Source: Nautilus pompilius
Lineage: Eukaryota > Mollusca > Cephalopoda > Nautilida > Nautilidae
Assembly (NCBI GenBank): GCA_018389105.1
Contig: JACATO010000648.1
Coordinates: forward strand, 434,001-498,000
Length of the DNA stretch: 64,000 bases
Direction of reading: 5' to 3'
Below are positions 17,799-56,512 of this stretch, piece after piece. Position 1 is the stretch's first letter. Each line of letters opens with the position of its first letter. The translations under genes and the position numbers were made by a program. The notes under the pieces are model-generated. The model did not search any database, was not told where the DNA came from, and was given only the letters and a program-made list of their open reading frames with translations.

Positions 17799-17868
17799 AT
17801 GGACTCTCCTTCTAAAATGTGGTTTTGTTGCTTTTTGCTGAACATCCCTCAATTCACAATTACTGTAG

Positions 17869-24706: not shown

Positions 24707-24712
24707 AATAAA
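24707..24712 (+). promoter_or_regulatory. Polyadenylation signal, unit A F5/8C gene
   Basis: AATAAA begins 23 bases after the stop codon of exon 4. The gene would have a very short 3' UTR. The equivalent signal is kept in unit B. Confidence 0.55.
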
Positions 24713-30070: not shown

Positions 30071-30112
<42 letters not shown>

Positions 30113-31260: not shown

Positions 31261-32826
31261 GATCCCTGTTGAGTTGGACATTTTTTTCCATTTCTAATTT
31301 ATGGTAAATTTCCCTCCATTCTAGTTGTTTTGTTTATCCCATTCATCATGGGCTCTTCCATTCAATAGAAAGTGATGCTGAGACAAGAAGCATTTTAAAC
31401 TTTAATTCTTATCTCCATGACTACTTTGTCTTCATTTATTTAGATAGCGAAAGTTCCAGAATGAGAGCCACACTTACTCGTACTAAATTACTTTCCACCT
31501 ACTCAATGCTATCAACTGATTTCCACTATCATTTGTTGCAGCCATTAGACATTTACTAGTAAATAACTTTGAAAATTTCTCCATCGGATGGAGTTAGAAC
31601 AGCAAACAGTTCATCTCTTAGAGGAGAGTGTTATTTATATTTTACCTGGATATCTGACAAATGTATAAAAGAAACTGGGAAAGGTACAGCTCCATTTATT
31701 TAGAAAATATTAAAATATGCTATCATCTGTTTACACACTCACAATTCTATCAGGTAAAACTACCAGACCGTACACTAGAGCATTTCCAGGACAATAATGG
31801 AGAAAAGCAAGCTAAAGTTTTGCATCAACTGTTTTCACCTTTCTCACTGATGACTTATATTAAATAGTCAGACGATAAGGTTACCTTAAACACTATCAAT
31901 GTTCCATCAAACAGACATCTGAAGTTCTTCATAAATTCGGTTATGGTGATTTCTCTTCGATCTTCGTGTCTCTGCTACTGTTCTCTATTGTTTTTGCAAA
32001 ATATAAATTTATTCTTTTTTTACTTTATATGACAAAACAAAATTTCATCTTTTAAATGGCATAGAACAAGTCATGAACTTTTGGTGGCATGTGAATAAAT
32101 TATGCAAATTCGATGGCGGTATAAAACAATACTAAGAGGGGAGAACTAACCAGAACGCTGACTAGACATCCCACATAGTTCACCAAAGCTGCCAATCAGT
32201 GATTCCTTTAAGGGAAAAGATGGATCTGAATGGAAACATTTCAAAGTGAAGCAAGCCAGGTGAGCAGCCACATTGTTTTTATTTAGCATTATAAATAAAA
32301 ACTGAGATCTTAAGATTTAGGGACATAATTTTTTAAAATAAGCAGCTAATATTTTAACTACAGTACAACCAAAATAACCTGACTACTCTTGTAGCAAATT
32401 TAAAACAGAGTCATGGAAAATGTGTGGTGGTGAGAAACAATGGCAAATAATGAGATGATCAAACTAGCTAAGCAATCAGTACAACTGTAATTCAAAGAAA
32501 AGTGATAAAGACAGGAAATACTTCCATACTGGTTACCAATCACATTAAAAGGTGCACAAGTCAATTATTCATCAACAACAAATAACACAGCATCACTATG
32601 CATCTGCTGATACTGTCAAGAACATGGCTCAATGTTTAGCTGGCAACCCCAACTTCCCAATAAACTATACCTCAGAAAAATCGGAGCATTTGTACAATAC
32701 TAGATGCAGAGATTTTATTTTAAGATCTACAAAAGTTTTGAAAAGATACCATGTAGGAATGTAGGGCCATCATTAGTATTACAGTAGTGATGTTCTCGCT
32801 TTCTGTCTCTAGAAATCAGAGCACAA

Positions 32827-32894
32827 CTAGTGGACAACAGTAAACTGCTGAGGTTGAGCAACCTGAGTTCAAGTCCTGCAGTGGACCCATCTGT
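32827..32894 (+). repeat. tRNA-derived SINE head, unit B
   Basis: Identical to the element at 9,938 in unit A, with the B-box gagttcaagtcctgc. Confidence 0.5.
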
Positions 32895-33118
32895 TTTGGT
32901 GCATCTTTCTCCTCTTCACCAGCCACATTTAAATATTTCCTCACTGTACATCACTCAGATTGCTTGCTAGTGGAAAATGGTGGCACTACACTCCCTCACC
33001 GAGATTATATTTCTACTCCAATGACCAAAGGGAGACAAACAAATTCTCCATTTAAGATGACGTAATCCAGCTATCTATCGGAGACTCTCAAGAAAGGAAT
33101 GCATTCAGTAAAATTATT

Positions 33119-34762
33119 GATGCAAACTGAATTGAGGAGAATGCACAGGAGCACCTTCTGTTTGTAGCAATGACGCACTGTGCAGCAAAGATGCCGATGG
33201 CAAGTTATCTTACAGACGTGAATGGACAACACTGGGTGAAGCCATCAGATTTGTCTATATCTCACAAGAACAGCCTTTTGGTCTCCGAGCACATTTTGAT
33301 TTCATGGAAACTTCACTAATCAGTGCTCGTACTACTAAAGCACTTTGGCAATGTGTTTGTAAATGGCAGCTGCCACTGATCAACCAGTTTTTGGTCAAAA
33401 TTTATTAAAATGCCGCAGATCTTTTGGGCTAAAATGCAAATGAACAAGGCAACAATAGCCGACTGGCACAGGCGTGACACAAACAATTACTGCAGCTCGG
33501 GTACCCAATTTAACTGACTCTGAAAACAATGAATTGGAGCAAGATATTAACTGATGAAATGATTTTATCTTCATCAGCAAAATAAAGTGATGTTGGTGAC
33601 AGCAATAATGGTGGATACAACAAAAACTATTCTCTGGAATAAATGTAACAATATTCATCAAGTAAGTTGCAATAGGTAATCAAACTTATAATTTTGATTT
33701 TGTTCTGGTGCAATACAGCTATCAGACAAAGTCAAGTTTCTGTCTGCTATAGCAAATATTGAACAATTCTGGTTGCAATTTCTTAATGATGGATTGAAGA
33801 CTCCCTGGCCCTGGCTGGAAGAAACAAAGGAAAGTGATAAATCTCCCTCTGCAACACTCCTTGTCAGTGGTCACGTATGGCCATTGGAATTTTCTAATTT
33901 TACAAAATAAAGTTAAATTTAACATGCTATGGTTACACATTGAATAGCATACCAATTTGATGCAAATATATGAAAACCATAAAGACTTCATAAATCATGA
34001 GATTCAATAAATGTGAGTGCAGTGTCGAGCTATACGAAGACGATCTGAAAATGAATTGTTTAATTTCTAAGATGATGCAAAACTGTTGGCCATGGCTGCT
34101 GACTAATAAAAGGGAAAATAAGAAAAATTTAGTACACAAAACAAGCTAAAATCAGAGGTTCCTCTAATTTCAGTGTTTATCAAGATACAAGTCATTTATT
34201 TTCAAACAAAAGTACCAAGGGTTCAAGGAAACCTACTTAACAGTTGCAAACTTCATTTGCTTGACATGCCAAAAAAAAACCTGCCTTTCCCACCCTACCA
34301 GATTAACAAGTTTCCAACCGATTGTTCCGTCCTGCGGCCTGACCCACACAACCTGGAAGTTTTAATGAGATCTACCAATAACCTTTCTTCAAGGTTGGAT
34401 TAATGTGACAAATTTTAATTTACACCAAGACTCCATATGGAAAGGTAGCAGTTTGACCAGAGTTCATTACTAAAGACCATCATCTCTAGATATGGTAGAA
34501 TATTGTAGACGTGTGTTTACTCGGTGCAACACTAATTATATTTGTTAACAATTATAATAAATAAATGGACTAATCATATGTAAATAAGTTTTCCTCTTCC
34601 TTCAGATTGATTTCTTTTCTCTTTCATGGGGTTCACTTGAATAAAAGCACTGACAAAACCTACAAAGAGCTGTCCCATGGTAACTAATTGAGTAAACCTC
34701 ACAATGCTCACTTTCTATTCATCTAACAACAATAGATTTCAAATTAGAGTACTACACCACTG
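33119..34762 (+). pseudogene. Decayed F5/8C-domain paralogue, unit B
   Basis: The copy of the 10,230-11,875 pseudogene: remnant exon 2 from 33,119 and remnant exon 3 at 34,606-34,762 with preserved splice sites. It is nearly identical to the unit A version (for example one G/A change in 'tttcgtggaa' and a 2-base indel nearby). That near-identity is the natural control for the high divergence of the intact gene's exons. Confidence 0.75.
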
Positions 34763-36329
34763 GTAAGTACCCAGCAAAACCATAGCTGAGTTTACAGATG
34801 TTTTTACATTCAAAAACATGATGGAGAAATGGCTAAATCAACTAAAATAAATAACTCACTGAAATAGCTTTTAAACTGGCTGACAGTTACTAGTAACAGC
34901 ACCTACAGCTGGTCATTTACTTTGCTGCTGCTTCTGCTCTTATTTTGTTATGAAACAAACCACATTTCATTATGGAGCCTTGAAAATGGTTTCCATAATT
35001 CCCAATTAATAATGTTCTCTATTTGCTAATAACTACCATGTTCATTGAGAGTCCTTAGGAGGCTAAACCTGGTCAAAGATTTCAGCAAGAAATCTGAGCG
35101 AGTATGTGGGGTCAACGTGTGAGAAAAGTAAACGCCAGGTCAGAAAATAAACGGTTGGGCCAGAAAAGCTACGTCGTCTAGGAGTCGTACCCAAGATGTC
35201 AGGGGGCATGAAAAGTATGAAAAGGCGAGGTCTAGGAAGGATCAGATCCTGAGCAGATTTTTGTTGGGTTCACCTTCTACCAGATGACATGAAAAATTAA
35301 TCTAAAGTATACACACAAATAAAAAAACATATAAACAAGCTAAAATTTTAGATTGCATTCACAAAGGTAATCAGACTCCGTCTACTAAACCCCTCAAAAA
35401 AATACAAGTAGTTATCTCCCTTGTGACATAACCAGGTATCAAAACACAGTTTTCCAGTCTGGGCAGGAGAGATGCACAGCCTTTAGGTGGATACAATTGA
35501 TAGTCTAACCAACCTAGCAAACCTTTAACTTGCTGTCACATTTTTTGTTTTTAAATTTTTTTTGCTCTCTCATATTTACTCCCTCCTAACAAGTATTTCT
35601 CCATGATATCCTCTGAGAATAGTAATTGTTATTCCATCATCTTGTGAGGTGGGTGTTGAAAGTGGAAGCCTCAGTCAATGCTGAGTAAAAATTCTAGGAA
35701 CGCGGGCACCGGTGTTGCTAGGGTATTCTGTCAGTTGTGTCTCATGAGTTGCTTCATTGTCGTTAAATGCCCATTGCTCCTTTAGTCCCTCCATTCCTTC
35801 ACTTAAGGTTTTCCATCTATTGTTCTCAACCGAATGCCCTTGAAAGGATGGAGAAATTCTTAACTGATTAGGGGAGGAATGACAGACGGTGGAGCAAGTC
35901 CAAGTAAAGACGGTGGGGATGCTTTAAATATTAGAATGGAACGTAAAAAAACCAAGTTCAGAAGATACTAAGAAAACCCTGCGATTCAACATTAATGGAG
36001 AGAAGCCTCAATACTGATTATGCATGACCGTTTTGTGACATCATGTTTGTCACATCATGTTTGTGACATCATGCTTGTGTGGAGCGAGATTTTCTGCTGT
36101 AGCTGTCATAAAGACACTGTTAATTACAGAAAAGGAGCAGAAGATTCGCTAATTATTCATCAGTCTCAAGTTTTGAGGAACTTTGTGCCGAGAAGCCAGC
36201 TCACCCACCTATCTAATAGAGGTTAGTTACTGGTTCCATGGTTTTAGTAATTTTTATGTTTAAATTTAAGAATTTTACAATATAAAGTTTCTTGCAGGCA
36301 AAAAAAAAAAATATTGATTTTGCTGCTAT

Positions 36330-36393
36330 CGCTTAAAAAATTTCTGAGAGAAGGATACGAGGGACCCCACTGTATCAAGTTTGGAAACCACTG
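36330..36393 (-). mobile_element. hAT-like terminal sequence, unit B
   Basis: The copy of the terminus at 13,442-13,504, beginning CAGTGGTTTCCAAAC on the minus strand from 36,393. The other end is not seen. Confidence 0.4.
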
Positions 36394-36974
36394 AGATAAC
36401 AGTTCGGTTTCCTTAATCCAAACCATCACATTAAAGAGACCATGTCGATTTTCATAATTCTGCTGCGTCAACATTTTTTAAAAAAAAAAATTATTTGAGG
36501 AATGGAGAAAAGACCCAGTTTTAACTGATACAAATTGAAGTGCTACTGATTCCACAGACCCTTCCTAGGAATAAAACAGTTGTTTCCCCCCCCCCTTTCT
36601 TCATAGTTAGTTAGCAGTTTTGGGTTTACAACTTCTAATGGAGAATTGTCTATTGTTTATACTTTGGGGAGGATTAATGAGAAATGTTTCGCATTTTCAA
36701 CACCAAAATATGCATACTTACTGTAAATTTGGACTTATAAGACGAGGAATTTGTATCAGAAATCCAGGCCTAGTCTTTTTATCTGAAATGGATGAAATTA
36801 ATATTTCTCAATATTGAAAAAAAAAAAAAAAAAAATGCATTAAAGCCGAAAAATACGCTGTGGAGTTCATATAAAACTACTTGGTGAACACGGGGTTTTC
36901 TTCAGTAGGACCAGTGTTCACTGTTCATCAAAGTATGCTTAATTATCCAAACAGTAACAGGCCACCTGTTACAT

Positions 36975-37413
36975 CACACAAATCCTACACAGCAGCCTTT
37001 AAACTGAAAGTGGTAAAATTTGCCAAGGAAAATAGAGGCTGCTGCTCACTGGCATCAGTAAAAAAATGTGCCAAGGAATGGTGCAAGAAAAAGGGATACT
37101 CTACACACAACAAAGAAAACTAGGGCGGCAAATCATTGGTGTATATCTCAATGGAAAAACAATGAGGACAGGTTAGAAGCGTATACATTGTCACAGACTT
37201 AACACTGTTCGTGAGAGATTAAAAGTGAAACAAATCGCCACTGAGTTGGGAGTAGAGACCTTTGTGGGCGGTCCATTGTGGTGTTTCTGCTTTATGCGTG
37301 GAAAAACTGCATAACAGGCAGCGCGCAACTGTATCACAGAAACTGCCTGAAGACCTCGAAGAGAAGGAAATGCAAACAGAAAGGGTGATTTTGTTGAAGG
37401 ATTACAGTAGAAT
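36975..37413 (+). mobile_element. pogo/Tigger-type transposon fragment, unit B
   Basis: The same DNA-binding-half remnant as in unit A: KSYTAAFKLKVVKFAKENRG, then KVKQIATELGVETF and TVSQKLPEDLEEKEMQ. It differs from unit A by a short indel after KKCAKEWC. The upstream A-run is shorter here. Confidence 0.68.
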
Positions 37414-39112
37414 TTCTTAATGCTAATGAATATGGCTTAAGATGACAAAACAGCATAATTGGAACCAACTGTAATAGAGGTTTCTGTCTGATTTCATTTT
37501 TTATGAAAAAAAATCAAGTTTGATGATTCAGACAGTGAAAGCAAAGTTCACCAATATCAAAAAATGAATGCTCCCACACTGACTGATTACCATTTACACT
37601 AGTGATAATGGAAAAGTAACTCTGTGTATCACATCAGACTACAGTAATTTGTTCGGAGTTCATATTTATTCAAAACCAAATTAGTTGTAATATCTATTTC
37701 AGTATATCTTATTGTCCAATAAGTCTGCTTAATATATTTGAATTACTAAGTTATTACCTCCCTTTACTCAGCAATAGTGCATGGTTTTGCTTATTGGTTG
37801 CTTATAAATCAGTCAATGATTTTCAAATGCTGAACATTAATAAGCAGTACACCTGTAAATTGTTTATAATAAAACAAAATTTCCCTATTCTTTGCCTACT
37901 TTAATATCTGCATATACAGATTAAGAAGCAACATCAATCTAGCTGCACTTATGCTTGGAGTAAACTCAATATCGAAATGCCATATGTACTTCAACAATTG
38001 TGTTAACATATAGCCTACAAATGCAGTTTCCACAGTGTCTACCTGATAAAGCCACACATCATTAATCAGTAGACTGGTATCTTTGTAGTCTGAATACCGT
38101 TTTCACAATGAAAGGTAATCTCTTTTTGAAGTCAGGTAAAAATCACAACCAAAATTGTTAAAGTACATAAAAAAAGTTATTTTGAGCACAATACAAGATT
38201 ATCGGAAATGCTTATTTTTCCACATTTCTGTTTGAGAATTTCTTTTTAAAGATATAAATGAAATGAGAAGTTGATTTTCATCTCTAGATATGTATATTTT
38301 CAACAGTTATCTCTCTTGTTAAATCCAATATTCATACGGAAATCTAATCAATGACGATTTACTTTTCAAAAAGATTCCTTAAGCCTAAAAAAAGCCACAA
38401 GGAAACGTAGAAAACTTATTCACTGGGTGTCAGAGTGGAGCTATCAGAACAAAACAAAGCTTAAGTAATGCGTGCCTTATTTATCTCAGTGGGGATGTAC
38501 AGGTAAACAGAACATATAGAAAAATAGGGCAGGGGATATTCCATCCGTGCTGTTCCAAAGCCACAGCGCAGGTGAGTCAGGTACCACTACTTAAAGCAGA
38601 AAATATGCAAACTTTAAATCTGATGATGTGATTTCAGTGAGGATAAAGCTCGGGTAGAAAGACCCGAGTGTAAAAATGTCATTCTTTTGGTAAAGTAAAC
38701 TTTGGACGTTTGCTAAATAGAGACACACAAACAATATGACAGATGAATAAAAGCCATACAAGAGGTGCCAGGATTTTGAAACATCTCCATACTACTTTTG
38801 TAGGCTACTTGAAGAAAACATCGCCCAACAATTTTTAAACGGAATCTTATGTATACTACATTTACATACAAAATCTGGTCAGAATTTGTAAGTTCTGAGA
38901 ATGGTTAATTAAACAACCTGATATTGTTACCTTTACTGAGGACAAAACGTACAATAGAGAACGCAACAGATGTCAAACCAAATGACATCGATTATAGCCT
39001 CATCTCGTTGTTAAAATTGACAACTCTACTCATGTGATGACCGGTTGCTGGTGTTCCTTATGTGTCTGTTTCTTAATAAAAATTAGGACCCATTCTGATT
39101 TAAATTAAAGCA

Positions 39113-39306
39113 CGTTTTGTTGGATTTGGTCCTCGATCCATACATCGAGAAAATGTTCCATCAGCTCCATTACATTACCTCTCGCCTTCATAATTGGTAC
39201 AGCACATCCTGGCGATGCACTTTTAATATCGGCGTTGTTGTGACCTGAGGAAAGGTGCCTTTCCACAATGTCCAGTTTTCTTTCCATGCTTATAGCTTGC
39301 CTACCT
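39113..39306 (-). mobile_element. Tigger-like transposase N-terminus fragment, unit B
   Basis: Minus strand: AISMERKLDIVERHLSSG joins through a deletion to NNADIKSASPGCAVPIMKAR and MELMEHFLDVWIEDQ. The deletion relative to unit A removes the SVRTFLN segment. It is a fragment with no catalytic domain. Confidence 0.6.
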
Positions 39307-39516
39307 GGTGATGTTGAGCCAATAATACTGAGTAAATTGAGACACACGGAGCAAAGCTGACCATTATGTGAGATGAATAGTGTACAGTAGGTAAATCAGT
39401 GCACACGCCCAGTAATTCAAGATTGTGTAACTGCTCTTTGTTTCTATAATGAAAGAAAAACAGATTAAATTAATTCTCAGCTTAGATGTAGCTACAAGAA
39501 CATGAAATCATAAGTA

Positions 39517-40683
39517 TTAGGGTGTTACAAACGTTTTGTTGGATTTTTTAACGCAACGAGACTTCATGTCATTGCTGAACGTGAAGAAGTTTATTAGTCA
39601 AAGTTAGTTCCATTACAATCAATACACTTCTGCAAACGAGAAATCTGGAGTCGATAAACTGTCGGGAGGCAGTTTCTATTGCTGCTTCGTTGGAGGAAGA
39701 TTTCATACGAAGGAAGCTGTCGAGGTGTTTGAAAAGGTGGTAGTCTGTGCGAGAAAGGTCTGGTGAATAGGCTGGGTGAGGGAGAACTTTGTACCCCAAC
39801 CTATTCAGTTTCTGAAGAGTCACCTTTGCAACACAAGGAAGAGAATTTTCGTGGAGCAGGAATGGGCCTCTTCAATGCACCAATGCCAGCTGTCGTTGGG
39901 AGAGTTTCTGATTAACGACGTTTAATTCATGACAGTACCTCTCAGCTGTGATAGTTTTGCCAGGTTGTTTAAAGATATAGTTGATGACACCAGTTGCAGT
40001 CCACCTGACATTGACCATGACCTTAAGTGAGTGGAGACTAATTTTTGGAATGTGGTTAGCCACCTTGTCTCTATTGAACCACTGTGCTCATCGTTTGCAA
40101 TTGTTGTAGAGGATCACATAATAATTCGGTCAAGCAATGGGTCGTCTTGGTTTCTTATGACAACCGAAGACAGATCTCCAATCGACGATTTTGTTGTTTT
40201 TCATTTGGCTCGTGAGGCATCCACTTGTCCAGCACTTGCCAATTGTCAAAATGCAATAGCTTTTCACACTTGGAGCTCAACTGAGGCTTTCAGACAGTCA
40301 ACGATGTCCACTACGTTCCTTATCTTCGAGGCTCACATCTCCTGATTGAAATTTTGTAAACCATCCTTCTACTGTGCGCTCATTTGCTGTGCCCTCGCCC
40401 CATGATCGATTAATGTTAGGAATTGCCTCGCTTACTTTGTGGTCAGGTTTGACCTCGTGAAGCAAAATCACACGAAAAACATTTACATCCATGCTTCACT
40501 CAGAACCCTGAAACAAACATCCATTTTATGATTTTTGGAAAAGGTAAGTTTTGCATGATGTTTGGTAAAGCACACGCTACAAGACAGTACATGACTTATC
40601 TACATACAGCTTCACAAGCATGCAAAAAACGAACTCCTAATTAACATAATATAAAAACCGACAACACTTCTGTATCAACCTAA
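39517..40683 (-). mobile_element. mariner transposon, broken, unit B
   Basis: The same insertion as in unit A, with identical TA-flanked ends, 1,167 bp. It retains about 42 bases (around 40,230-40,275) that unit A lost. Transposase pieces lie at 39,569-40,063 (YSPDLSRTDYHLFKHLDSFL; MANHIPKISLHSLKVMVNV) and 40,298-40,492 (FRVILLHEVKPDHKVSEAIP). The frame is interrupted. Its right end is 35 bp upstream of the unit B start codon. Confidence 0.88.
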
Positions 40684-40718
40684 TACTTGGTATGAAAATT
40701 CTTTTCCAGGTTGGAAAC

Positions 40719-43700
40719 ATGGACTCTCCTTCTAAAATGTGGTTTTGTTGCTTTTTGCTGAACATCCCTCAATTCACAATTACTGTAGGTAAGTGGTGAC
40801 CATCTCATTTTTTACTGCCCAATTTTCACACCACAGCAAAGTTTATAACATTAACTTATGCAGGAGTCCATCATTACCCTCCTGCATTAGCAGTGAAATG
40901 ACTAGCTATCCAACCTGTGCTCAGCGACTGTTTCCTGTCAAATTCATCATTGGATCAGATTGACTGACTGCATTTATATATTTAGATGGTGCATGTGTCT
41001 CTCAGCTGGTCTTGGCCATGGGAGCTGTCAGTTTGTACATTTTTGGACGTCTTATATGTCAACCGAAACTTTACTTCTTTTCACAAACATTCAGCTCAAG
41101 TCAGCACATTAAGTATCCATCACAGGAAGCTGCTCCTAGAGAACAGGGTGAGGTGGTCAGCTGCAAGTACAGTGCAGAAAGAATCTACTGGAGTCCTTTA
41201 TTTTTTTTAGATGTGAGTGGAATATGGCACAAAGGGTTGATGGAAATGATCGAACCCTTAGCTCAGTGTATCACTGCCATATCCAGTTAAATCTAAAAAG
41301 TATCCAAAACCTTAGCTATCAATGAGTCACATGTTCAAGACCACAGTCACCCTTGGAAGCCAGCAGTAAATCAATCTAGAAACATTCAGCGTTGAGGCCC
41401 TAACCAGAACGTCAGTCAGGAGAACCAAAACACTTTTTCGTTAGCTGTGTATTATAAAGAAAAATTAATCATGAGATCGCCACGTTACTGTCCTATAATG
41501 TACTGTGGGCACGGACATTGACACCAGCTCTCTCAGGCCAACGAAACCCATGCAGGTTCCTCAAGGGCCAATGACCTCTGATTAAAAGATTTACAAATTT
41601 TAAAAATACATTTTATCTCTAAATTGGATTTTAAAAAAAATGTATTTTTTTTTTCATTATTTTCTGTGTTTTAGATGTAAATGTGGCTGCAGCAGCAAAT
41701 GGAGGACAATGTACAGGTTCATCTGCCTTTTACAATGAAAACTTTAATTGCTCAAAGGCTGTTGATGGAAAGATAACTTACAGATATGAATGGGCGACGT
41801 TCAGAGAAGCAATCGGTTCATGGATCAACATCCGTTTTAATTCAACCTACTACATAGTGAAGGCAAGAATAATGCAGCGGGCAGGAAGAGATGACCAGTC
41901 CAAAGATGTGGATCTGTCCTTCAGTGATGGTTCAAAACAAAGGGTAACAAACACTTTACATATCTAATCCTTTCAGTAAATAAATTGTACAATAGAAATG
42001 GAAGAATATAGACTGCAGGCAAAAACTATACTGTTGTTCAACACAATAATAAATTTATTTTTTCATAATAAACAATAGGCTACAATACAATATTTAAACA
42101 TTAGTTTTATGATTGATCAGTCATTTATTGTGTTAAATAATATTCTGTATTCAAAATGTATTTCAAAACATACATTTATTAAAGCTAAGTGTTTATTCCA
42201 TAGTTGCATCTGTATGTGAAATTGCTACAAATGTGAGAACAAGATTTAACTGCCATGACCTTAGAAATGTCAAGAGGCAGTTCAGTATTTTGTTAAATAA
42301 CTTACGGGCACCACTGTAGATTGCAGTTCAATATTATACTAAGCTAAGATCATATTTTTTGTGTGCTTCCCCTGTTATACAGCAACAAACCATAGGAATG
42401 CAGTCACTTTATAAAATATTCTACCAATGATTCTCCATCTTCTGCTGCTGCTGTAAGACTAATATTTGCTTTTAAAAGCAAGGATTTTATTTGTTTCATA
42501 TGCTACTATTTTTATATTTTTTATAAAGGTAAATCTTACAAATGATAAATGGCCATGTCCAAACCTTGATTCCAGTGGTCAATGGTCCATTCTCGTCATT
42601 GTTACTTTTCCTTATTATCTGAAAGTATTCTCATATGCTCAAATACCTACTACATAAAACTGTTCTAGCATAAATATGACATTCTTATGGCAATTTACAG
42701 CAGGTAATCAAACTGATTATTCAGATATTCTTCTGGAACATACAACTATCAGGGAAACAATCAATAATATTCAAAAATCATTGAGAAGTTGTCATGGGTA
42801 TCATGTCAAGTTAAACGGGCAGATATGAAAACAGATTTTGTTTAATTTCTAAGATGATTCAGAACTGTTGGCCATGTCTGTTCAGTTAGATGAATGCAAG
42901 ATCTGTACTTGGATGAATTAGGCTGACTGTAATAAAAAGGGAAAATAAGAAAAATTTAGTACACAAAACAAGCTAAAATCAGTGGTTCCTCTAATTTCAG
43001 TGTTTATCAAGATACAAGTCATTTATTTTCAAACAAAAGTACCAAGGGTTCAAGGAAACCTACTTAACAGGTGTAGACATAGTTTGCTTGACATACCAAA
43101 AACATGCCTCTCCCATCCCTCCACCCTACTGGGATAACAAGACTTGTAACCATTTGTTCATCCTGTGACTTCATCTACACAAGCTGCAAGTTTAATGAAC
43201 TCTATCAGTAACTGACTATACATTCGGATTCTGCTCTCATACTTAGACCAGAATGTACTAAGGGATATAAACGGAATCAATACTCTAAATACTCCTTCGC
43301 TGAGAATAAATTAGAATTTACCTTTCATGCCCTTCCATCTTTTATTTGTTAAAAAACAGAAGCTAACAGGTTAAATTTATTCTGATTACCTATGGAGAGT
43401 CACATATGGATTGAAAAATAATTTTCTGTTTCTACAGAGATAGAATAGAAACTGTAAACATAAATGGACAAACTAAGCAGTCAGTGATATCCTCGTGTTT
43501 TTAGTGCATTCCACTGAATATAGTAAATTTAATTATTCATCATTTTCTGTTCCCATACTTTATTTTCGTTGAAATTTTATTAAATTATGATTGCATGTCA
43601 AATGAAATATGATTGGAAAATTTTTTTACATGTTATAGTTTGTTAGCTTTTGGTAAATAAATCAAATATTCAGTTTTTCAAAATTCTAAAAATGTAAGAA

Positions 43701-46700
43701 AATGTCTAAAATTAATCAAAACAGCAGTAAAAATATGCCAAATCACTTTGACATTGCTTTGAAACAAGTTTTATCTTCAGGTAAAAGTATTTCCAGATTC
43801 TGTTGATTAACAGAAAATAAAACTTTCATTCGAGTGTTCAAGGTCATTGTGGCAATGAAACGTTTTTGAAGCTGCATTACCAGGGTTGAACATTGATGAT
43901 TCCTCAGAAAACTCCTTATGGAAAGTTGGCTATTTGACCACGGTTTCATTTTAAGAAAAAACTGCAATCTCTAGATATGGTAGAATATTCTGGACATCTG
44001 TCCATTTGGCACAACACTGATTATATTTGCTATCACTTATAAATATCAGCTTCAGTACATGGACTAATCATATGTAAATAAGTTTTCTTCTTCCTTCAGA
44101 TTCGCCTGACAAGAAACAATGGCAGTACCTCCAAAGCTGCTGCTGTTTGGGATACTTTCAACCTGGTTCCTGTGGTAGCTAATAGTGTGAACCTCACAGT
44201 GGTGTCTGTCTATACAAATTACTATATTGGATTTCGAGAAATTGAGTTCTACGCTACACGTAAGTACCAAGCAAACCTGTAGCAGAGTTTACAGTTGTTG
44301 TTTACATTCAAAAACATGATGATGAAATGGCTGGATAAATTAAAATAAACAACCCACTGAAATAGCTTTTAAACTGGCTGACACAGTCACTAGTAACAGC
44401 ACCTACAGTAGGTCATTTACTTTGCTGCTCCTGCTCTTATTTTGTTATGAAACAACCCACATTTCATCATGGAGCCTTGAAAATGGTTTGCAGAATTCAC
44501 AATTAATAATGTTCTCTATTTGCTAATAACTACCATATGTTTTGGACTCTACACATTCAAACTCCTGGATCATTTCCAATGCTGCTGCTTCATTCCAGCT
44601 TCAAGTACATACACGTGAGAGTAAACTATGTAATAAATATTAAAATCACTCTAAATTGGTCAATAGATGGATGTTATCCTCTTCAGAATTGAAAGTTTAA
44701 AATAGAAAAATATGGCAGTAGAGACCAGAAAATGAGGGGGGGGGGGAATAATTCAATTTAAGCAAAATCTATTGTCAATCAAAACAGGAAATGCAGAAAC
44801 AGTCAAAACTTCTGAAGAACCACCAGTAGACAACAATTAGAACAGCAACAGCAAAGAGCTGAGGGGAGAGAAAGAAAGAATATATGTAGTAAAAGGAGGA
44901 GTTTTCTACTCTTTATGGTCAGATATATGGAATCCGATAATTAACCATTCTGGTGGGTTTTAATATCAAATCTCAACAGCAACTGGCTACTGCCTCTGAT
45001 CACCTCCCTTTGCTTTTGTTACTTTTCTCAGATTTGGTTCTGTGCAGTTTGATGATGATGATAGCTGATGGATTTGACCCTCTCAAGTCTCTCTGAAGTG
45101 TTTATTACCAAACACATTTAACAAACCTCTAGTTTTATAGAGAATCAGTTTAGATTAGTTCAGTTGTTAAATGGAGGCAGGTGCTATGGGTCTCCAGGGA
45201 AGACAGGTGACCAACAACACAACTTTTATCATTAGTACCTTGTCTTGACAGTAATTTATACCACAAATTGATATTCAGATTGTCAGATTTATCTCACCTG
45301 CTTGAATGCTATTATCTACTTGTATGTGTGGTAAGTAAATACTTCATTCTCATAGATCAGTGTACCTCATGGAATAAAATTAATATCACCAGATTCTATA
45401 CAGAATTACTAATCTATAATCATAAATGCATTCATCATTAAACTATGTGCTAATGTGACAAGCAGCTGATATTTTTTAAAGGAACAAGATTAACACAAGG
45501 CATTTACTTATCTTCTGATATTATTCAGCAGTTAGTAACCTGCAATGGAAAATGTATAAAATGGTTATTGAAATGACAATCATTGTAAATCTTGTGGGTT
45601 AGATGCATGATTAATACTTCATACATTAAATGCTGCTCGCAAGACATTAAATATGCATCTGTGATAGACTCTTCACATCCTATTGCAAAAGATGAGATAG
45701 TTCAGATACTGAAGAGTTCACCTTCTGTACATTAGGCCTGATCTGATACTAAAGATCAGCCATCAGGTTTGAAGTTGGGCTTATGGTGGCCAAAAAGAGA
45801 ATTCACTTGAATTATCCCTGACATATTGCAAACATACAGCATCATGGTGAGGTTTGGCTTGGTGATCATTGAACACTGGTTAATGACAAGTGGGTAATTA
45901 ATTATCCAATTTAGGATGCTCATCAGGCTGAATTTAAAATTTCAGGCATGGTGAATAGATGATGATTACATTGATTAGATCTGATCCATACACACACTGA
46001 TGTAGCAACCTCAACAAACAATATCCCACCAATGTTTTCCTGATTGCCCATATGTTTTGCCAAATTTTAATTAGACCAATGAAATCAACCTCTATGTTCT
46101 TAATTACAAGAACTAGCCTAGTTCTTATGTTGATCCAACAACCCCTGATGTAACATATGCCAAATGGTGTGATATCCAAACAGATTCTGGACACAAATCT
46201 GATAAGAGAACATGTTGCAGGATTTCAATAGATTCTTTAGGTTTGGGTCATTGGTGAAAGTGGATAAATAGAGGACCCATCTTATCTAGAAGTCATTTAC
46301 AGATGACTGGAAACATATGAAGACTTAGCTGGAACAGCACAATTATTGGTGGCTAAGAATTTGCAGAGATTCATTGTCTCAAATGAGATGGGATTATTGA
46401 TAACACGAGTGTCAGTTTACCTCCCTTCAAAAGAGTATATTAATCCAAACACATGATGCTTACCAGAGATAATGATTTCTATCAGAACAAAAGAAAACAC
46501 TTATTTTGTTCCTGATTTCATTTTTCAACATGTCTATTTCCCATCCAGATGCCTCATTGAAAGGTGTCCCCTGTGCCTAGTGTTTTTATTCTTAGGCTTG
46601 TGTTAAAAGGTGATCATGTCAAAAGGAATCCGGACTATACTGGTGTCTTTAGAGAAAGAGGAAAGAGGATGAACAATCATCACTGCAGTTCTAGTAAGCC

Positions 46701-47624
46701 TGTTGCTGTTGCACCATTTTGGCATAAACAAATGGAAACCCTCTCATAGCTGTCTGCCTGCATCTTTGCTTGTTATCTCTAAATTATCATCCAGTTTTCC
46801 AGAGTCAAAATGGGTGATAATGAAAACACGGGACATTTTGTGATAAAGTAGTGTTCTAAAACAAAAGAAAATCAAACTTTGTCCATTATTCTTTGTTCTT
46901 TGAAAACCATAACCAAATTTGACTAATTTTTTAAAAACTTGGAAAATATTTCATTAAATTTTGTTTTTAAAATCTATAATAATATTTATTATAAAGAAAA
47001 TAGTAGATGATTTGCTTTGTAACAGATATACATTCCTGTATCTGGTTGTCACATTGATTTCTTTGTTTTTGTTGTAGTTCTTGTATGAAACATTAACTTT
47101 TCCATTTCCACATTTGGCTAACACCCTGACATAGAAGGATTACATATTTTCTGTTTTGTATTTATGAAGGACAGTGTTATGTTAAGATGGTGCTTTTGAT
47201 TATTTCATATTAACCATTGCAAGTGACAATGGCACCAATGTCTCTGAAGCTATGACAGAAAGTGGATACGTAAATAAAACCACTGTCCATGCTGTGAAAT
47301 GTGTTATATCATTCATGAATTTGTTTTCAAACTATCCACATTTCCCTTTCTTTTCCAGATTTCTCAAAAATCATGGAGGCTGTCTTGTTCAGCAATAACT
47401 CTATTAACTGTCCCTCTCAGGACAGCTTCTCCGTAACACCTAGGGATACAGCCATCAAAATGAACACCTCTCACTCCTGTGCTCTACAGTGTATAAACAT
47501 TAGGGAGTGCATTGGATTTAAGGCAGATACCACATGCATCACTATTCAAAGAAATGAGAGAAGAGATGTCTGTCTGCCATCAAGAAGTACGATGTGCAAA
47601 TTGCACTATAAAAATATCCCGTAG
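40719..47624 (+). CDS. Secreted F5/8C (discoidin/fucolectin-like) + PAN-domain protein, unit B
   Basis: Four exons in phase: 40,719-40,788, 41,675-41,943, 44,100-44,259 and 47,359-47,624, giving 254 residues. Exon 1 is a signal peptide (MDSPSKMWFCCFLLNIPQ...). Exons 2-3 encode a galactose-binding-like beta-sandwich: DVNVAAAANGGQCTGSS start, NCSKAVDG, EWATFREAIGSWINIRFNST, YYIVKARIMQR, DVDLSFSDGSKQRIRL, and the closing YIGFREIEFYAT typical of F5/8C domains. Exon 4 is a compact PAN/apple-like domain with seven cysteines (SCALQCINIRECIGF ... TTCITI ... DVCLPS ... MCKLHY). Several N-glycosylation sequons occur. Such proteins bind sugars or surface ligands outside the cell; ligand and role here are unknown. 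Splice sites are GT-AG, and AATAAA follows the stop. Mature exons differ from unit A at 44 codons by replacement and 3 by silent change, while the signal exon is identical. Confidence 0.8.
40789..41674. other. Intron 1 of the unit B F5/8C gene
   Basis: Donor GTAAGT, acceptor TTTTAG. Nearly identical to intron 1 in unit A, with only scattered single changes and short indels. Confidence 0.6.
41944..44099. other. Intron 2 of the unit B F5/8C gene
   Basis: The first ~150 bases differ from unit A at roughly ten positions; the remainder is close to identical except a small cluster around 43,870-43,970. No gene was seen inside. Confidence 0.6.
44260..47358. other. Intron 3 of the unit B F5/8C gene
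   Basis: Donor GTAAGT, acceptor ccctttcttttccag. Open frames at 45,934-46,194 (minus) and 46,564-46,749 have no recognisable content. Confidence 0.6.
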
Positions 47625-47646
47625 AGCAAATTAAAACAAACATCAT

Positions 47647-47652
47647 AATAAA
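47647..47652 (+). promoter_or_regulatory. Polyadenylation signal, unit B F5/8C gene
   Basis: AATAAA starts 23 bases after the stop codon, as in unit A. Confidence 0.55.
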
Positions 47653-49610
47653 ATTTGCTGATTTTTTCAGGCATAAATCGTATTATCAACTTTCAGAAAA
47701 AAAAAAAAAAAAAAACAAATGCTCATTTTAAAGATTAACACTAAACAGACTATGACTTGACTTGATTGGTTATTTTAAAATGTAAAAGTATGCATACAAT
47801 TATTATTAAAATTATGTACACGTTGTTGTTGTTCTGGGTATTTAGAAACATTCAAGTTCTCGTTCAGTAGGTTAACTAGATTACAAAATGGACCATGGGC
47901 ATTGTATGATTGATCGGATATAGGTTTGTGTGGAAAGGAGCAAGGCAATTTTATTTATCAACATCAAAATGGGTTCAACTACTCCATAAAAGCACTCAGA
48001 TACATACAACAGCCTCTGATGCAAAAAATCTTAGTTAGACAAGGAAGACTCGATTATGTCAACTCCCTGTTTTCCATTTAAACCATGTAGCCATTGCATT
48101 TTTAAATCTATTTTAAGTGTGCTCCATCACCAAAGCATTCTTGTGTACTTTTGCTCGCCTGTCACTGCCTAAAATAACACTTGCAAGCTTGATTTAAAAT
48201 TCAACTAGATTTATCCTAATTTAGCAAGTTTTTACTTCACTTCTATACAGCTCGCCTTAATGTGTTTAACCCTTGTACTCCAATTTCCTTTCATCTTAAT
48301 ATAAAGTTGTTATGGATCCACTTCCACTAAAGTCAAAAATTTTTGCTTTTCCCTCCATTAAACACAGGTGAGGAGAAACTCGTACAATCAGACAAATTAT
48401 AAACCTCTATAGTACCACCATTACATGAATAGTATGCACAATTGTAGTCTGGTAATGAAAGAAAGAGTAGAATGTTTTGACAGGAAACATCTTAATCACA
48501 TTTTAGAATGAATTAAAACAAGTTATTTTTGTGGGAATGGATGAAATCTGACATTAGTGAATTTTGGACAATCATTGCTGTGCCATCAAAACAATTAGCT
48601 ACAGTCATCTGTATGTCATTTTCCATGAATGAGAAAGAACAAATAGACTGTCTTTACACAGTCTGGACTGACATTTACCATTTCCATATCTAACTGCCAA
48701 GTTATTAAAGATGAAGTGCAACTTTTGTGCAGTGAGCTCTATTGATTAGTTCTATGCTATGTGAACTTTCCTTATTTAGAAAGGTATACAGAGTTGAGAC
48801 AGTCAATAAATACAGCCCCCAGACTAACATTAATGATGGCTCAAGAAGAAAAACAGAAAACCTAAATAATTTAGAAAAAGAATTACCATTTGTAAATGGA
48901 AGTAAAGGTTTGTGGGTAGTTTGAAAAAAATGTGTTCTAGTAGCATTTTCCAGAAACCTTTACAGAACTAAACAAAAGAGAAAAGCATTAATGTATTGAG
49001 GTAAAAGTGGTGGATTTCAAATAGTTTGGAATGAAAGGTATGTATGTCACTGTTCATAATTGTCAATCTTTGCGGATGGACAAAGAGCCTTAAAATTTGA
49101 ATGTTTAGCTTCAGCTATTTAAAAGGTGCCTCGCACGTGGAGAGTAATCTCCCGTGGCTGTTTGTCATCTTTCACTGATAAGCTTAGAGGAAGAAGCTAT
49201 GAACAATGCTTATGTTAAAAATATATCAATTAAACCAAAGAGCTGATGCTGTTGTCATTAGCTGAAAATGAAATGAGGCACCCAGTTAACAGTGTATTTC
49301 TACCTTTGCCATTGCTGAGTGCTGAAGGTCAAAATTCTCTGCAACCTAACAACCTCTACACTGCTGCAGTTATCTTAGAAACATCAGCAGTGAAAACAAA
49401 GCTTTAGGTGACATCTATGGTTGGCTTTAACAATTTCATCTCTTCAGATAGTAAATATTATTGAAGCTGTTGTCCATGCTTCATTAACAATGGTGCAGCA
49501 CTTCATCTAGAACTTCTTGCACCTATGTTTTGCTTTGCTTGCTATATATACAACAATTTTAGTAAAATGAATAGATTCTGTTGCTTAACTTGCTGCACTG
49601 TATTAATTTA

Positions 49611-50412
49611 GGGACAGGAGCCACACTTCTGGAGCTGACTGAAAAGCTATCCTCATTTAAGGACAAACTGAAGTTGTGGAAGGTAAAATAGAGGGGAAAG
49701 ACCCATTTTGTCCTATCCTTAAAGTTTCTGTTAGAGGACTTTGAGGGAAATGCATCCCCATCGTTTGAGGACATCTGAGGTGGTATTTTGGAGCACCTGA
49801 ATAATCTCAGAAAAGAATTTGAGCACTAAATTCCTGCTGAAGATACAAAGAAGTACATGTGGGTTCGAAAACCTTTCAGTTTTAAAGTGATAGATTTGCC
49901 AGACAACAGCACTCCTGGACTGCAGGAACAATTGCTAGAAATACAACATGATGGAATACTGTGCCATAACAACAATCAGCAATTCCTCAGTACTTTTTGG
50001 GTCACCCACTATGACAAAAAACCAATTGTTGCTGCAGAAGCCGTCGAGGTCTTCCTGCCATTCACGACCACACACCTTTGAGAGGCAGGATTTTCAACAT
50101 TAGCACAGACGACGACGAAGCTTCGCAGCAGGCAGGATCTGCATTACAGCCTCTCTAACATAACACCTCCTTTTGAAGACATAGTGAGGAACAGACAAAG
50201 TCATCCCTCTCATTAGTTGTAGACTGGGAAAGAGTTTACATTTTCATTCAGTTGCATTATACTTTTCTATATGAATTTTACACTGACCTTGTATCAAACA
50301 ATAAACACTAACCATTAAATCACCGTGTTTACTTACCTTCATACTTCCTGGTCACAAGCGTCGCTTAATAGTCTGGTGTGGGGTTGGGTCAAAAAACGTT
50401 TAAGAAACACTG
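49611..50412 (+). mobile_element. hAT transposon, 3' part, unit B
   Basis: The copy of the 26,659-27,462 remnant: SSFKDKLKLWK, DLPDNSTPGLQEQLLEIQHD, VEVFLPFTTTHL, EAGFSTLAQTTTKLRSRQDL, ending in TTTAAGAAACACTG. It has the same breaks as unit A and lacks the 5' half. Confidence 0.8.
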
Positions 50413-51615
50413 ATGCAGATGCAGTCTTGGATTGATGATTCTTTTTGTGGGAAATCTGAATCACCTAAACATGTATTCTTAAGTTGTTCTGAAAATAAAC
50501 AACAATGAAAAATGCTGACTACAAACCCCTGTTTCTCTAAGTAACAAACCTAACAAACAAAGAGCACTTAGCTTCATCCATATCATCCAAGGTCCAGAAG
50601 AATACGAAAAATTCCTTACATTAAATTACTTGCCAGTCATCCAACTCGCTCCCTTCCAGATAACTGTGTGGATAAAAGTAACCACAAATCAAACCATTTT
50701 GCAAGGTCATTTTTCATCAAAAATTACTAGAATTGAGAAAGATTTTAAATTACTTTTATTTACACTTACAATGCATCTATTGTAGGATATAAAAAATATT
50801 TGCTCTCCTGTTTAATGGAACCTAACAAAGGTACTTGCTGACAATGCAACACCTGAATGGCTTTCGATCTCTTCAAAAATGTAATGGGAATTTCACAATG
50901 TACTGAGTCTTCGACACCAGTTGGCATCTGGAGCTGTGATGTCAGTTTAGTAGATAAGTTAACACGAATATTAAAGATGAGACTAATAATAAGCATTTTA
51001 CTGATGAAAAGCAATCTGATTATAGGCTTCTGTCAACGTCTACTTGACAACTCAAACTGATAAAGTTTCTACTATCAACTCCAAGTTAAAAGATGCTATA
51101 GTAGATGGCGAGATTACTGCAATTAAGCCAGCCATAGATGCCTCCTCACAACTAAATAAAATCCTCTGAAGTCTGAACCTGACTTAACATTCATGTGTTG
51201 AATGGCGGTTTGTAGGTCGCCCATTACACCCGAGTGAAATTCGTAACTAAGCATCATCTTGCAAAATGTTGACTGCTGACATTGGAAATACTTTCTAAAT
51301 GTTTTCTATGATAGTTTGTGGCATCACAGGAGCACCAGCTTTAAAAGTTACAATTGTATGTACTTTAAGAAACTAAACCAGATAGGGCTGCTTTGAATAA
51401 TCCTGGCAAGATAGGGCAAGAATAAAGACTCTTTGTCCTCTTATGGCTGATGTCATGAAACAATATACTAGTATAGATAACTGTTAACCAGAAAGTATGC
51501 ACGTCATTACAGACAAGGTAAAGGCTTATGCTATGTTAAAGTACGGCACAATACCAGCTATTTTCACAGCATTTCCATGTATAAGGATGTAATCAGGTGT
51601 ACAAGGACATTGATA

Positions 51616-54600
51616 GGATCTATCGCTATTGGCACAACCATATTCATCAACGTTTGTTGATAGAGAATAGATCACAGTACATCTTCATTATCAACAAACT
51701 AATCCATGGCTACGTCAACTATGTTTCATGTGGAGGAACCATAGCTGTAAGGTCTTTATCTTACATATGGATTCCCCTTATTTGCATTTATGCCATATTT
51801 ACGCAGAGAACAAGTAAACCTCTCAACGCCTTCAACTATCCAAAATACTGTGCCTCCTCTTCTAGTGTACATCCTCTTAGGCAGCCATCTTTGTGTCAGT
51901 TCATGCAAAATGTACAGTCTAATGTGCTTGCATTACAAGGTGTAGAGTAAAATCTAACGCACATGTACTGCAAAGCTTTCAGTCTAATGCGCAAATAATA
52001 CAAGATCGGTGGCTAAGCTCTGCGTCAGAAACATGGTGGATTCTCTACACAGAAAGACAACCAATAAAGTGTCTCACCACAGTAGTTGTGCATCAAAGTC
52101 ACAGTCATACATCAATGGTTATCTACTTTTCATCATTCGCACAGTTATTATTTCACCCGAGTAATCTTTGATGCTCCCCTCTGGTTGCTGTGTCACAACC
52201 AAGCAGATCACCACACCCAAACACTCCGCCGCCATTACAACGAGTAAACATGTAGGTACAACAAAAACTCCGGAACGCTGGGAGTTTGAACAAAGGCATT
52301 TTGTTTTTCGCCTTTTCCGCTAAAACATCTGAAAATAAATCGAGAAGAAACTGAATTATGTAGCCCGTTATTAATTATGAGGAATCACTTACTTCCTCTC
52401 GTCGCGTTCCTTCGGGAACTATCTCCCCCCCCCCCCTGTACAAGGCAACCAGACAGAGAAGAAACTCTCCGAATATTCTCCAACTCTTCTTTCTCGTCAG
52501 CTTTATTTAAAATTATTTATATGCAGTATTAGAAATAATTACGGAATCAGAAGAATAACTGGGAATAAGATGCAAATAACGTTTATAAAATCGCATATCA
52601 TGCGAAAAAAAAAAAAATAATAATAAGATGTTCCAGAGTATAGTCACGTGCGGATAATACTTCACTGTGATTGGTTGTCACTGCAAAGCAGTCAGCGGGC
52701 GCCACGCCTGTGGAACTAGTGTCGTTAATATCTGATGAATGCTATGGCACCTTGGCAGAAAATAGCACATGGCGAGCACAATTTTTAACGGGTGGAGGCT
52801 GTTCCGTGCAGCAGACTGCAGCCCGACTTCGTGCTTCTGCGAGACTCTGAGGAGGACACGCGGGCAATGATGATAGTAGGCGAGGTTGGGGGAGGAAGAG
52901 AGCTCAAACAGTGATGCTGAGCACCTCCAAATGTGTTCTCTACATGAGAGGCGACCAACCAGTAGGGACCTGGCAAATGGCTCAGCTGTTAACTTTTCTT
53001 CAAGAACAGGAAGCCTACACGTTAGCCTGAAGTGATTTTAGTATATGTGTAGCTGGCCGGAAACGTCTAATACAAGGGAGGCAACCGAACGGCAAGATGG
53101 GCAGGGGGAAAAAAAGGACATTAAGGGGGCTGCTGGTTGGTACTCGCAAAGACGCCCTGGCCTGCACAAAGTCCTGATGGGAACATCGGCGAGACTATAT
53201 AAAGTTATGTGACCCTTGTAAAAGTCAAATGACAACCAAACACCTTGTAGAAAGTGTTACAGGATATTTGGGGCAACATCCCAGTCATACATTGATAACC
53301 TGAATGGGAGCTTAGGTGTCATACTCTATTGAACCAAAGGGAGCTCACATACTAAATACTAATGCTCTGTGCAATCATTTTTTTTTTGTTGTTGTAATAA
53401 TGAATTGTGTGTATTATATACATTTCTCATTTGCAAATTACTTATAATTTGCTCATATCTTTTATGTTTTATGATTATTTCCAATACCACACACACACAC
53501 ATATATATTATATATTATTAAGGTTGTTTAAATGAGACCCGGCTGAGAGTACACTCGACGTAACTGTACCCGGCCGGGTTTCGTTTGAATCGACACTAGG
53601 ACATATACAAAACCTTGAAAGTTCATAATGGCACATTGGATGAAATACGGACCCGCCTTACAGACATTACTTACCGCTCCATCTGTACTTCAGGTGTCTA
53701 GAATTTTCATCCCGTCCCAGTCTATATAAAATTTTTAATTTATGTAGATTATTTATTTAATACTCACTATTTATAAATCGATGACAGATGGGATTCATCG
53801 AGATTTGGCAGGATTCGTAGATGTCAGAGGTGAAGCTAAAGGACCGTATCTTATTTTACATACGGGCGGCATCTAACAAATCTGTTTTACTTTTAAGCTA
53901 ATTGTTTGTGTGTGTTTTTTTAATAGTTACTCAGTCCCCTCCTTTATTGGGCTTGTATTTGCGTGGTCTCTCTCGTCTGCACGAGCATCCTACTTGTTTG
54001 TCGAAAGCTGCATTTCACTGGGGTTCATATTTGTTCTTTCTCTTTACACGCTGAGGCGGTTCCGGATTCTCACATTGGGGGGGGCAATAAATAAAATGAT
54101 AACAGATTATATGCTATAAATGACTTGTTCTGATGGTGTACATCACGATTCCCCCCCATTCTGTTTTTCTTAAATAAACAAACAATTTTTCTCATCCACA
54201 TTTATAGCTAATTTGTAGTTACGCCATCTGTTTTAAAGTCTATATATAATCCATCTGTATTTGTTAGACTCTTTTCTTTCCCCAGCTTGTAAAACTGCGC
54301 CGTTCATTCTTTCTCTCTGTGCCTGCGTCCATAGACCGGTTATTGCCACTTAAATATCCACCGCCAGCTACATGAAGTCTTTGATTTGACTCCCTGTAGC
54401 ATCCTGTTTCTTATAACGGAACTCGGCTTTTCCTCACTACCTCACCAGATCTGATTAATCACCTAGATTGGTGGTGGGGTTGTGTTTCCTACACGAGTTC
54501 ATATGATAAGTTGCAAACGGTTTGCTGTTTTCCATAAGTGTGCTCATTAGCTAAAGATAAACATGAGTATTTTTAATTTCGGTCGCTCTACATTTGAAAA

Positions 54601-56476: not shown

Positions 56477-56512
<36 letters not shown>

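Follow-up and report, generated by a model that had tools for sequence, protein, structure and literature searches.

In the window analyzed here, a 64,000-nucleotide stretch of Nautilus pompilius DNA, two neighboring genes that probably encode a secreted lectin-like protein of this mollusc are nearly the same outside the loops expected to contact the ligand. In these loops almost all changes alter the protein, a pattern that points to natural selection having adjusted the binding of each copy. The explanation we consider probable is that selection shaped binding loops on a conserved scaffold, with gene conversion keeping the rest of the two copies, A and B, alike. The tandem genes would encode a two-module protein, with a lectin-like beta-sandwich (DUF7402/F5-8C fold) followed by a short module with seven cysteines. 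Once the 20 kb block carrying them had been duplicated or last homogenized, selection would have repeatedly replaced residues in five loops of the presumed ligand face and in both flanks of the Cys-rich core, so that the binding faces of A and B would now differ while the scaffold stayed the same. Gene conversion between the copies would keep the remainder alike, whereas exchanges that cross the loops would be selected against, leaving a small hump of divergence around the exons. The function may be the recognition of a glycan or glycoprotein.

Two gene copies in a near-identical duplication

Unit A (8476..28671) and unit B (31365..51619), neither of them assigned to a strand, are 98-99% identical, with differences at 269 of the 20126 aligned bases (1.3%). 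Their identity is a heterogeneous mosaic, including one 3.4 kb tract at 0.15% (8476..11860, unstranded; 5/3383 differences vs 46/5156 in 11861-17356), possibly the product of a recent conversion or exchange. A difference of 1.3% is within the heterozygosity range of many marine invertebrates and would fit an assembly artefact, in which the two alleles of one locus were placed next to each other as A and B. We find this improbable, as both units lie inside the same 2.46 Mb contig, the left flanks outside them are only 74-92% alike, in patches and with a length difference of ~4.3 kb, the right flanks show no match beyond ~66 bp, and a divergence limited to loops would still need explaining.

Both copies have GT-AG introns, and all exons, loops, and signals given here are on the + strand. 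Copy B is intact (254 aa) and consists of exon 1 (40719..40788, start codon and probable signal peptide), exon 2 (41675..41943), exon 3 (44100..44259), and exon 4 (47359..47624, seven-Cys module and stop codon), with a polyadenylation signal AATAAA found by eye at 47647..47652. Within exon 4, a conserved core at 47436..47573, its bounds set by eye, carries 4/138 differences vs 25/123 in both flanks. Copy A consists of exon 1 (17799..17868, start codon and probable signal peptide), exon 2 (18752..19020, the first part of the DUF7402/F5-8C-like domain), exon 3 (21178..21336), and exon 4 (24419..24684, the Cys-rich module), also with an AATAAA found by eye (24707..24712). Compared to B, exon 3 of A lacks 1 bp near 21296; a sequence-only reading of this DNA had noted this as a length difference but missed that it frameshifts A. 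Exon 4 of A is open in B's phase and out of frame after this deletion. Either copy A died recently or one of its bases is miscalled. The units also hold relics of an older paralogue, namely an exon 2 (10241..10357 + in A, with an in-frame stop, and 33130..33246 + in B) and exon 3 homology (in the region 11720..11876 + in A, and at 34678..34761 + in B). Rfam and tRNA scans found nothing.

Exon divergence and codon substitution

Exon 1 is the same in both copies (0/70 differences, 0%), as had been claimed, while exons 2, 3, and 4 differ at 23/269 (8.6%), 10/159 (6.3%), and 29/266 (10.9%) positions, compared to 66/6109 in the introns (0.9-1.4% per intron). The 62 exon differences were reached in 3 of 2875 rotations of the exon annotation around the unit. 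In codons, exon 2 shows 16 replaced and 1 silent, exon 4 shows 22 and 2, and exon 3 shows 6 and 0 before the indel, with a further 2 replaced and 1 silent past it in B's frame. The coordinates and counts of the sequence-only reading, including its 44:3 replaced:silent codons, were thus reproduced exactly. Silent and intron divergence as high as replacement divergence would have spoken against that reading; in the full A/B comparison, replacement divergence (0.12-0.13 in exons 2 and 4) was far above both.

The use of 44:3 against a 3:1 expectation as a ratio test was nevertheless overstated, because the differences are patchy: 25 neighbor pairs lie at most 2 nt apart among the 62 exonic differences vs 13 among 155 noncoding ones, counted with four messy stretches left out. 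Under a null that preserves this spacing, ~8 silent codons are expected vs 4 seen, a level reached in 406/4000 runs from B and 386/4000 from A. The ratio taken at face value was therefore rejected, and alone, with clustering kept, it is not significant (p about 0.1). The same null gives P = 0.0097 for so few silent codons jointly with no stop codon.

Apart from the A/B locus, a genome search restricted to the best candidates found one other cluster, on contig C66, with copies at a much greater distance (silent divergence 1.3-2.6). With our own branch codon model on the tree ((A,B),(a,b)), where a and b are the C66 copies, omega for A+B was 3.37 (LRT vs 1, p 0.008; vs a background of 0.43, p 6.7e-6), a value that multi-nucleotide changes inflate. 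For exon 4 alone, omega = 1 was not rejected (p 0.32). The older C66 pair, with a silent divergence of 0.28-0.40 and a replacement divergence of 0.15-0.18, gives an omega of 0.45-0.55. Since these paralogues stand at about 0.5, selection appears episodic rather than perpetual, and the arms race that had been proposed is not seen in them as a permanent state.

Three other accounts of the exon divergence were rejected. Exon-specific mutation does not agree with the relic exon regions, which belong to the same family and the same duplication and differ at 0/117 (relic exon 2) and 1/157 (exon 3 region) positions, nor with the unchanged exon 1 or the intron-level divergence of domain codons outside the loops. 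Old exons under ordinary constraint with homogenized introns should resemble the C66 pair in silent divergence, and the A/B loops have zero silent changes. cDNA-mediated conversion of the exons is contradicted by non-loop codons that are undiverged inside exons and by flanking introns whose divergence is raised.

Loops and domain identity

Of the 24 replacements in the domain, 23 fall within the 55 codons of five loops (30/164 nt, up to 18% divergence; 23 replaced, 0 silent), as mapped on the structure that AlphaFold predicts for a remotely related DUF7402 protein (25-30% identical) with a mask drawn generously at its edges after the variable sites were known. The remaining 86 domain codons differ at 3/258 nt (~1.1%), the same as introns (p 0.76). 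The mature-protein exons, described earlier as hypervariable, are not so over their whole length: their non-loop domain codons change at the intron rate. Among rotations of the loop mask, 1/140 equals the observed count, and with DSSP assignments only, 22/71 non-strand positions are replaced vs 2/70 strand or strand-aligned ones (p 7e-6).

Loop L1 (41719..41748, residues 14-23 of the mapped domain) carries 4 replacements, L2 (41764..41820) 6, L3 (41878..41898) 5, L4 (44103..44141) 6, and L5 (44211..44228) 2 scored replacements together with the site of A's frameshift. L3 adjoins a conserved Arg that is kept in 16/16 rows of our alignment A2 and is a His in the Octopus protein P0121. Judging from the strand order, from which we deduced at which end each loop lies, the five loops, contributed by two exons 2.1 kb apart, would share one face, and they may bind a ligand. 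Because the replacements cluster in loops predicted to lie on one face, the ligand-binding role put forward by the sequence-only reading is plausible.

When the 24 domain sites were polarized with up to four outgroups, 6 had changed on B, 5 on A, and 13 were undecided, so that parsimony indicates changes on both lineages. This bears on the possible, though doubtful, alternative that copy A is dead and drifting and copy B was reshaped by selection, with the contrast partly reflecting relaxed constraint. The frameshift in A would fit, as would the frameshift-size indels in exons, no rarer than their surroundings predict (1 vs 1.40 expected), and the larger amount of change on B by ML branch length (0.174 vs 0.067 for A), with split omegas of 0.98 for A and 27 for B. 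However, giving A and B separate omegas adds little to the fit (lnL -2020.11 vs -2020.29), relaxed constraint cannot pass the intron rate that the loops so clearly exceed, exon 4 of A has no stop in B's phase even though 25 nonsynonymous differences separate it from that of B, and 5 of the 24 domain sites changed on A by parsimony.

The multi-nucleotide patches, with fewer transitions than the noncoding differences (25/62 vs 94/155, p 0.01), might instead be short gene conversion tracts donated by other, more divergent paralogues, an exchange of segments like that reported for snake venom genes in excerpts of PMC2711939. This seems very improbable, as a donated patch should carry silent changes, which the loops lack, and as the only clusters among the best candidates of the genome search are A/B and the much more distant C66. 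Extremely improbable, in our view, is that a targeted germ-line (or somatic) process laid the patches into the ligand loops, with one copy as reservoir and without selection on point mutations; if it were true, recognition would be diversified in this way in mollusc tandem lectin genes.

The F5/8C-type domain proposed from the sequence was found by Pfam: B matches DUF7402 (PF24135) with 49.4 bits vs a cut-off of 27 (E 6.5e-13, profile positions 3-133 of 133) and F5_F8_type_C (PF00754) marginally, with 28.4 bits vs 28.2 (E 2e-6), where C66 copy b scores 43.7 and 32.2 bits, respectively. The "PAN" label for exon 4 is not supported by Pfam, as the exon 4 sequences of B, C66 a, and C66 b gave no match at E values up to 10 in a search whose filters drop most weak matches. 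The exon's seven Cys are retained in 4/4 copies, with a spacing that may be PAN-like. With the family profile, matches were obtained to 2j1a/2j1e and 2j7m (2.2e-6), FBP32 (0.003), and 1k12 "LECTIN" (0.0042), 2J1E being named a CBM32 in the literature. PDB sequence searches gave nothing up to E 1 with B alone, one weak repeat-type match (fibronectin) with P0001, and a best E of 0.18 with exon 2 of the four copies.

Two known sugar-binding signatures were looked for. The F-type lectin motif, in excerpts of PMC5712786 a His followed 24 residues on by an Arg-x-acidic...basic segment, is absent by eye from B's 141-residue domain, which has no His; in the domain of A, one His lies 33 residues ahead of the loop L3 Arg and another follows it (by eye). 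The set of loop residues typical of CBM32 galactose binders, His, Tyr, Arg, Asn, and Phe (PMC3313936), likewise appears incomplete in B, judging from the lack of any His in its domain.

Noncoding divergence and known systems

Noncoding divergence peaks near exons 2-4, with 26/900 differences (2.9%) within 150 bp vs 78/9627 elsewhere, a hump reached in 0/1986 rotations. The exon 2 and 4 divergences of ~9-12% and the intron divergences of 1-2% claimed earlier were borne out, except that the immediate flanks are more diverged than had been stated. Divergence that peaks at the selected sites and decays into low-divergence flanks is the pattern of selection against gene conversion, and the peak is expected if selection holds differences against conversion, as in the human red/green opsins; we infer such conversion between A and B. 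A recent plain duplication followed by positive selection, without gene conversion, is unlikely. In that case introns and scaffold would record the age of the pair (~1%) and the loops would have evolved fast, and both the agreement of introns and non-loop domain codons at ~1.1% and the lack of silent change in the loops, which are therefore not old, are compatible with it. Against it stand the hump, the 5/3383 tract, and the 74-92% left flanks, which fit an older duplication homogenized inside.

The pair is a clean natural experiment, with copies ~1% apart whose main domain differs hardly anywhere but in loops that are predicted to share a face. Comparing what both faces bind would make what selection changed directly testable. 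A literature search for DUF7402 found nothing on its role in molluscs, to which the pair would give a first lead, and a search for an earlier such pair in molluscs returned comparators only. The best of 37 database matches, the DUF7402 protein P0121 of Octopus vulgaris (E 5.5e-46, with 61% of the query aligned at 49% identity), shares the signal-like start and the DUF7402 domain. It differs in its length (358 aa) and in a listed PF00090 (thrombospondin type 1) and, by eye, in two similar repeats, in a hydrophobic, apparently membrane-spanning stretch, and in having no exon-4-like seven-Cys module.

Oyster sperm bindin is likewise a mollusc lectin, with an F-type fold; excerpts of PMC5712786 describe repeats within one gene and an intron that recombines and varies greatly, whereas A and B are two genes with quiet introns, a DUF7402 domain, and a Cys-rich tail. 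Mussel myticin-C resembles the pair in its tandem secreted-peptide genes, its variation mostly in the mature peptide, and the recombination or conversion suggested in excerpts of PMC3164099. It is, however, another kind of protein, a small antimicrobial peptide, for which tests in the same excerpts mostly suggested neutrality. In snake venom genes with accelerated exons (ASSET), introns and signal peptide are conserved and mature segments replaced (PMC2711939, in part), but those genes form a different family and nothing points to venom for A and B. The human red/green opsins are also tandem duplicates, ~24 kb apart, with low intron divergence and a "peak of divergence" surrounding exon 5, the selected one, explained by selection against gene conversion in excerpts of PMC3924837. 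The opsins differ in two key residues of one exon, compared to five loops from two exons and a second module in A and B, where, unlike in the opsins, replacements greatly outnumber silent changes. The Nautilus pair would thus add a further example of tandem duplicates in which a peak of divergence shows where selection has acted.

Structure of the duplicated gene

Units A (window positions 8476-28671) and B (31365-51619), the two tandem duplicates, were aligned over their whole length and differ at 269 of 20,126 aligned bases. Each contains a gene of four exons with GT-AG introns. Copy B is an uninterrupted open reading frame of 254 residues that matches Pfam DUF7402 and, marginally, F5_F8_type_C, in agreement with the F5/8C-type domain proposed previously. 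Copy A lacks one base of exon 3 relative to copy B, and the resulting frameshift puts its exon 4 out of frame, though this exon is still open in the phase of B. Single-base indels may be a weakness of this assembly, which bears on that frameshift: on contig C66, where positions 4001-5765 and 12282-14050 form a second young duplication (99% alike), the exon 4 copy in 4001-5765 carries an additional base within a stretch of Ts. An untranslated upstream exon is likely, because a good acceptor, TTTTCCAG, directly precedes the start codon in both copies (17782-17799 and 40702-40719; identified by eye). Both units also carry broken transposase frames on the minus strand (16691-17575 and 39569-40495), presumably mariner-like from the frame's sequence, and a long, imperfect CT/GT-rich repeat array lies 3′ of unit B (56476-57504).

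Divergence between the two copies

Exons 1-4 of copies A and B differ at 0/70, 23/269, 10/159, and 29/266 bases and the three introns at 12/883, 27/2148, and 27/3078, a contrast that is far outside chance (when the exon annotation was rotated, 3 of 2875 placements reached it). Recounting A against B gave exactly the codon changes listed by the sequence-only reading (16 + 6 + 22 replaced, 1 + 0 + 2 silent), and the Nei-Gojobori values for the mature part were pN 0.105 and pS 0.044. The replaced-to-silent ratio is nevertheless weaker evidence than that reading made it, because the differences are clustered in patches: a null that preserves both how they are spaced and their transition class predicts ~8 silent codons, and the 4 observed are matched by 406 of 4000 runs started from B and by 386 of 4000 started from A (P 0.0097 when absence of a stop codon is added). 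Neighbouring differences lie within 2 nt of each other in 25 pairs among the 62 exon differences vs 13 among 155 noncoding ones, and transitions make up 25/62 and 94/155, respectively, the noncoding counts excluding a ~26 bp inversion between A and B. Such patches, several nucleotides long and poor in transitions, can arise from strong selection on single codons; the surprising alternative would be a mutational process acting patch by patch.

Our own codon model was fitted to the tree ((A,B),(a,b)), where a and b are older paralogues on contig C66, after removal of columns gapped in any of the four sequences (86, 34, and 78 codon columns kept). The A and B branches had an omega of 3.37, significantly different from 1 (LRT 7.04, p 0.008) and from the background value of 0.43 (p 6.7e-6). 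By exon, exon 2 alone was significant (p 0.014), and exon 4 alone was not (p 0.32). The domain sites were polarised with four outgroups, each used wherever alignable: a relic of an older paralogue, a, b, and an octopus protein. Of these sites, 6 changed on B and 5 on A (13 undecided), so change seems to have occurred in both copies.

To place the differences on the fold, the strands of a model of P0077, a distant DUF7402 homolog (237 aa, presumably bacterial; folded with 29 of the 120 relatives listed; mean pLDDT 89, pTM 0.68), were transferred by alignment. Where antiparallel strands follow one another in a sandwich, their connections alternate between its two ends, and by this rule, applied to strand order rather than coordinates, five loops would lie at one end. 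These loops (55 of 141 codons) hold 23 of the 24 replaced codons of the domain, with 1 elsewhere, under a mask with generous edges drawn with the variable sites already known; by DSSP alone, 22/71 non-strand vs 2/70 strand positions are replaced (p 7e-6). The loops differ at 30/164 bases without a silent codon (6.4% of runs under the patch-aware null, 1.6% with no stop), and the rest of the domain at 3/258 (1 replaced and 2 silent codons), a rate matching that of the introns (p 0.76). Exon 4 resembles the domain, with a quiet 46-codon core (4/138) and divergent flanks (25/123), the core bounds being chosen by eye. Because the changes are concentrated in loops and core flanks, "hypervariable loops on an unchanged scaffold" describes the pair better than the "hypervariable exons" first proposed.

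Possibly homogenised surroundings and older relatives

Noncoding divergence within 150 bp of exons 2-4 is 26/900 vs 78/9627 in the remaining block (equalled by 0 of 1986 rotations), with no hump in the 200-bp flanks of exon 1 (1/199 and 0/200). Over its initial 3.4 kb the unit is almost the same in A and B (5/3383), but the adjoining stretch differs at 46/5156 once four stretches affected by inversion or misaligned repeats are set aside. The ~26 bp inversion (about 14914-14960 in A), which mimics a substitution cluster in the alignment, does not enter this left-tract comparison. Left of A (3211-4081) and of B (29951-31257), collinear patches are 74-92% alike, and the right flanks show no match past about 66 bp. 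Combined, the hump, the near-identical tract, and the diverged flanks suggest an older tandem duplication with an interior homogenised since.

A six-frame search of the whole genome with copy B (727.6 Mb, 2558 contigs; best candidates only scored) found at least 20 places: 10 in the cluster containing both units, 7 on C66, and 3 elsewhere (E above 1), a lower bound, as exon 4 of the C66 copies was missed. C66 carries relics and two copies, a (minus strand) and b (plus strand), established as open for exons 2-4. The a/b comparison gives omega values of 0.55 (exon 2), 0.45 (exon 3), and 0.47 (exon 4) at a silent divergence of 0.28-0.40, pointing to long-run constraint on the family and counting against a permanent arms race. 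Their residue differences in exon 2 fall at 13/34 loop vs 9/52 other positions (p 0.04), and three gap columns sit in loops (by eye). The best of 37 database matches to copy B was Octopus vulgaris P0121 (E 5.5e-46, 49% over 61%), which makes a molluscan origin of the window probable. In P0121 the DUF7402 domain is followed by PF00090 repeats (thrombospondin type 1) and then a hydrophobic stretch, an architecture implying that DUF7402 is coupled to differing C-terminal parts in molluscs.

Putative ligand face and comparable systems

The family profile matches PDB 2j1a/2j1e, 2j7m, FBP32 (3cqo), and 1k12 (named "LECTIN"), the last of which we take to be the eel F-type lectin. According to PMC3313936, 2J1E is a CBM32, and CBM32 sugar sites lie in loops at the sandwich edge. 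By analogy with these relatives, the loop face would bind a ligand. The predicted ligand need not be fucose, galactose, or any sugar, because the motifs specific to F-type lectins and canonical CBM32s are absent and the loop-3 Arg, present in 16/16 rows of the alignment A2, is His in Octopus. The best-supported account, which we consider fairly probable, our confidence slightly reduced by that Octopus residue, is that selection diversifies the putative ligand faces of two tandem secreted lectin-like proteins, while exchange between copies A and B would keep the remainder alike.

An older tandem duplication homogenised inside would be a setting where a "peak of divergence" points to sites held apart by selection. 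The textbook example is the human opsin pair (PMC3924837); islands of divergence are described for a copepod (PMC3728101). For oyster bindin, PMC5712786 reports that positively selected change clusters on the pocket of its lectin fold, which shows that such targets exist in molluscs and is offered as a comparison with the A and B genes, not as shared membership.
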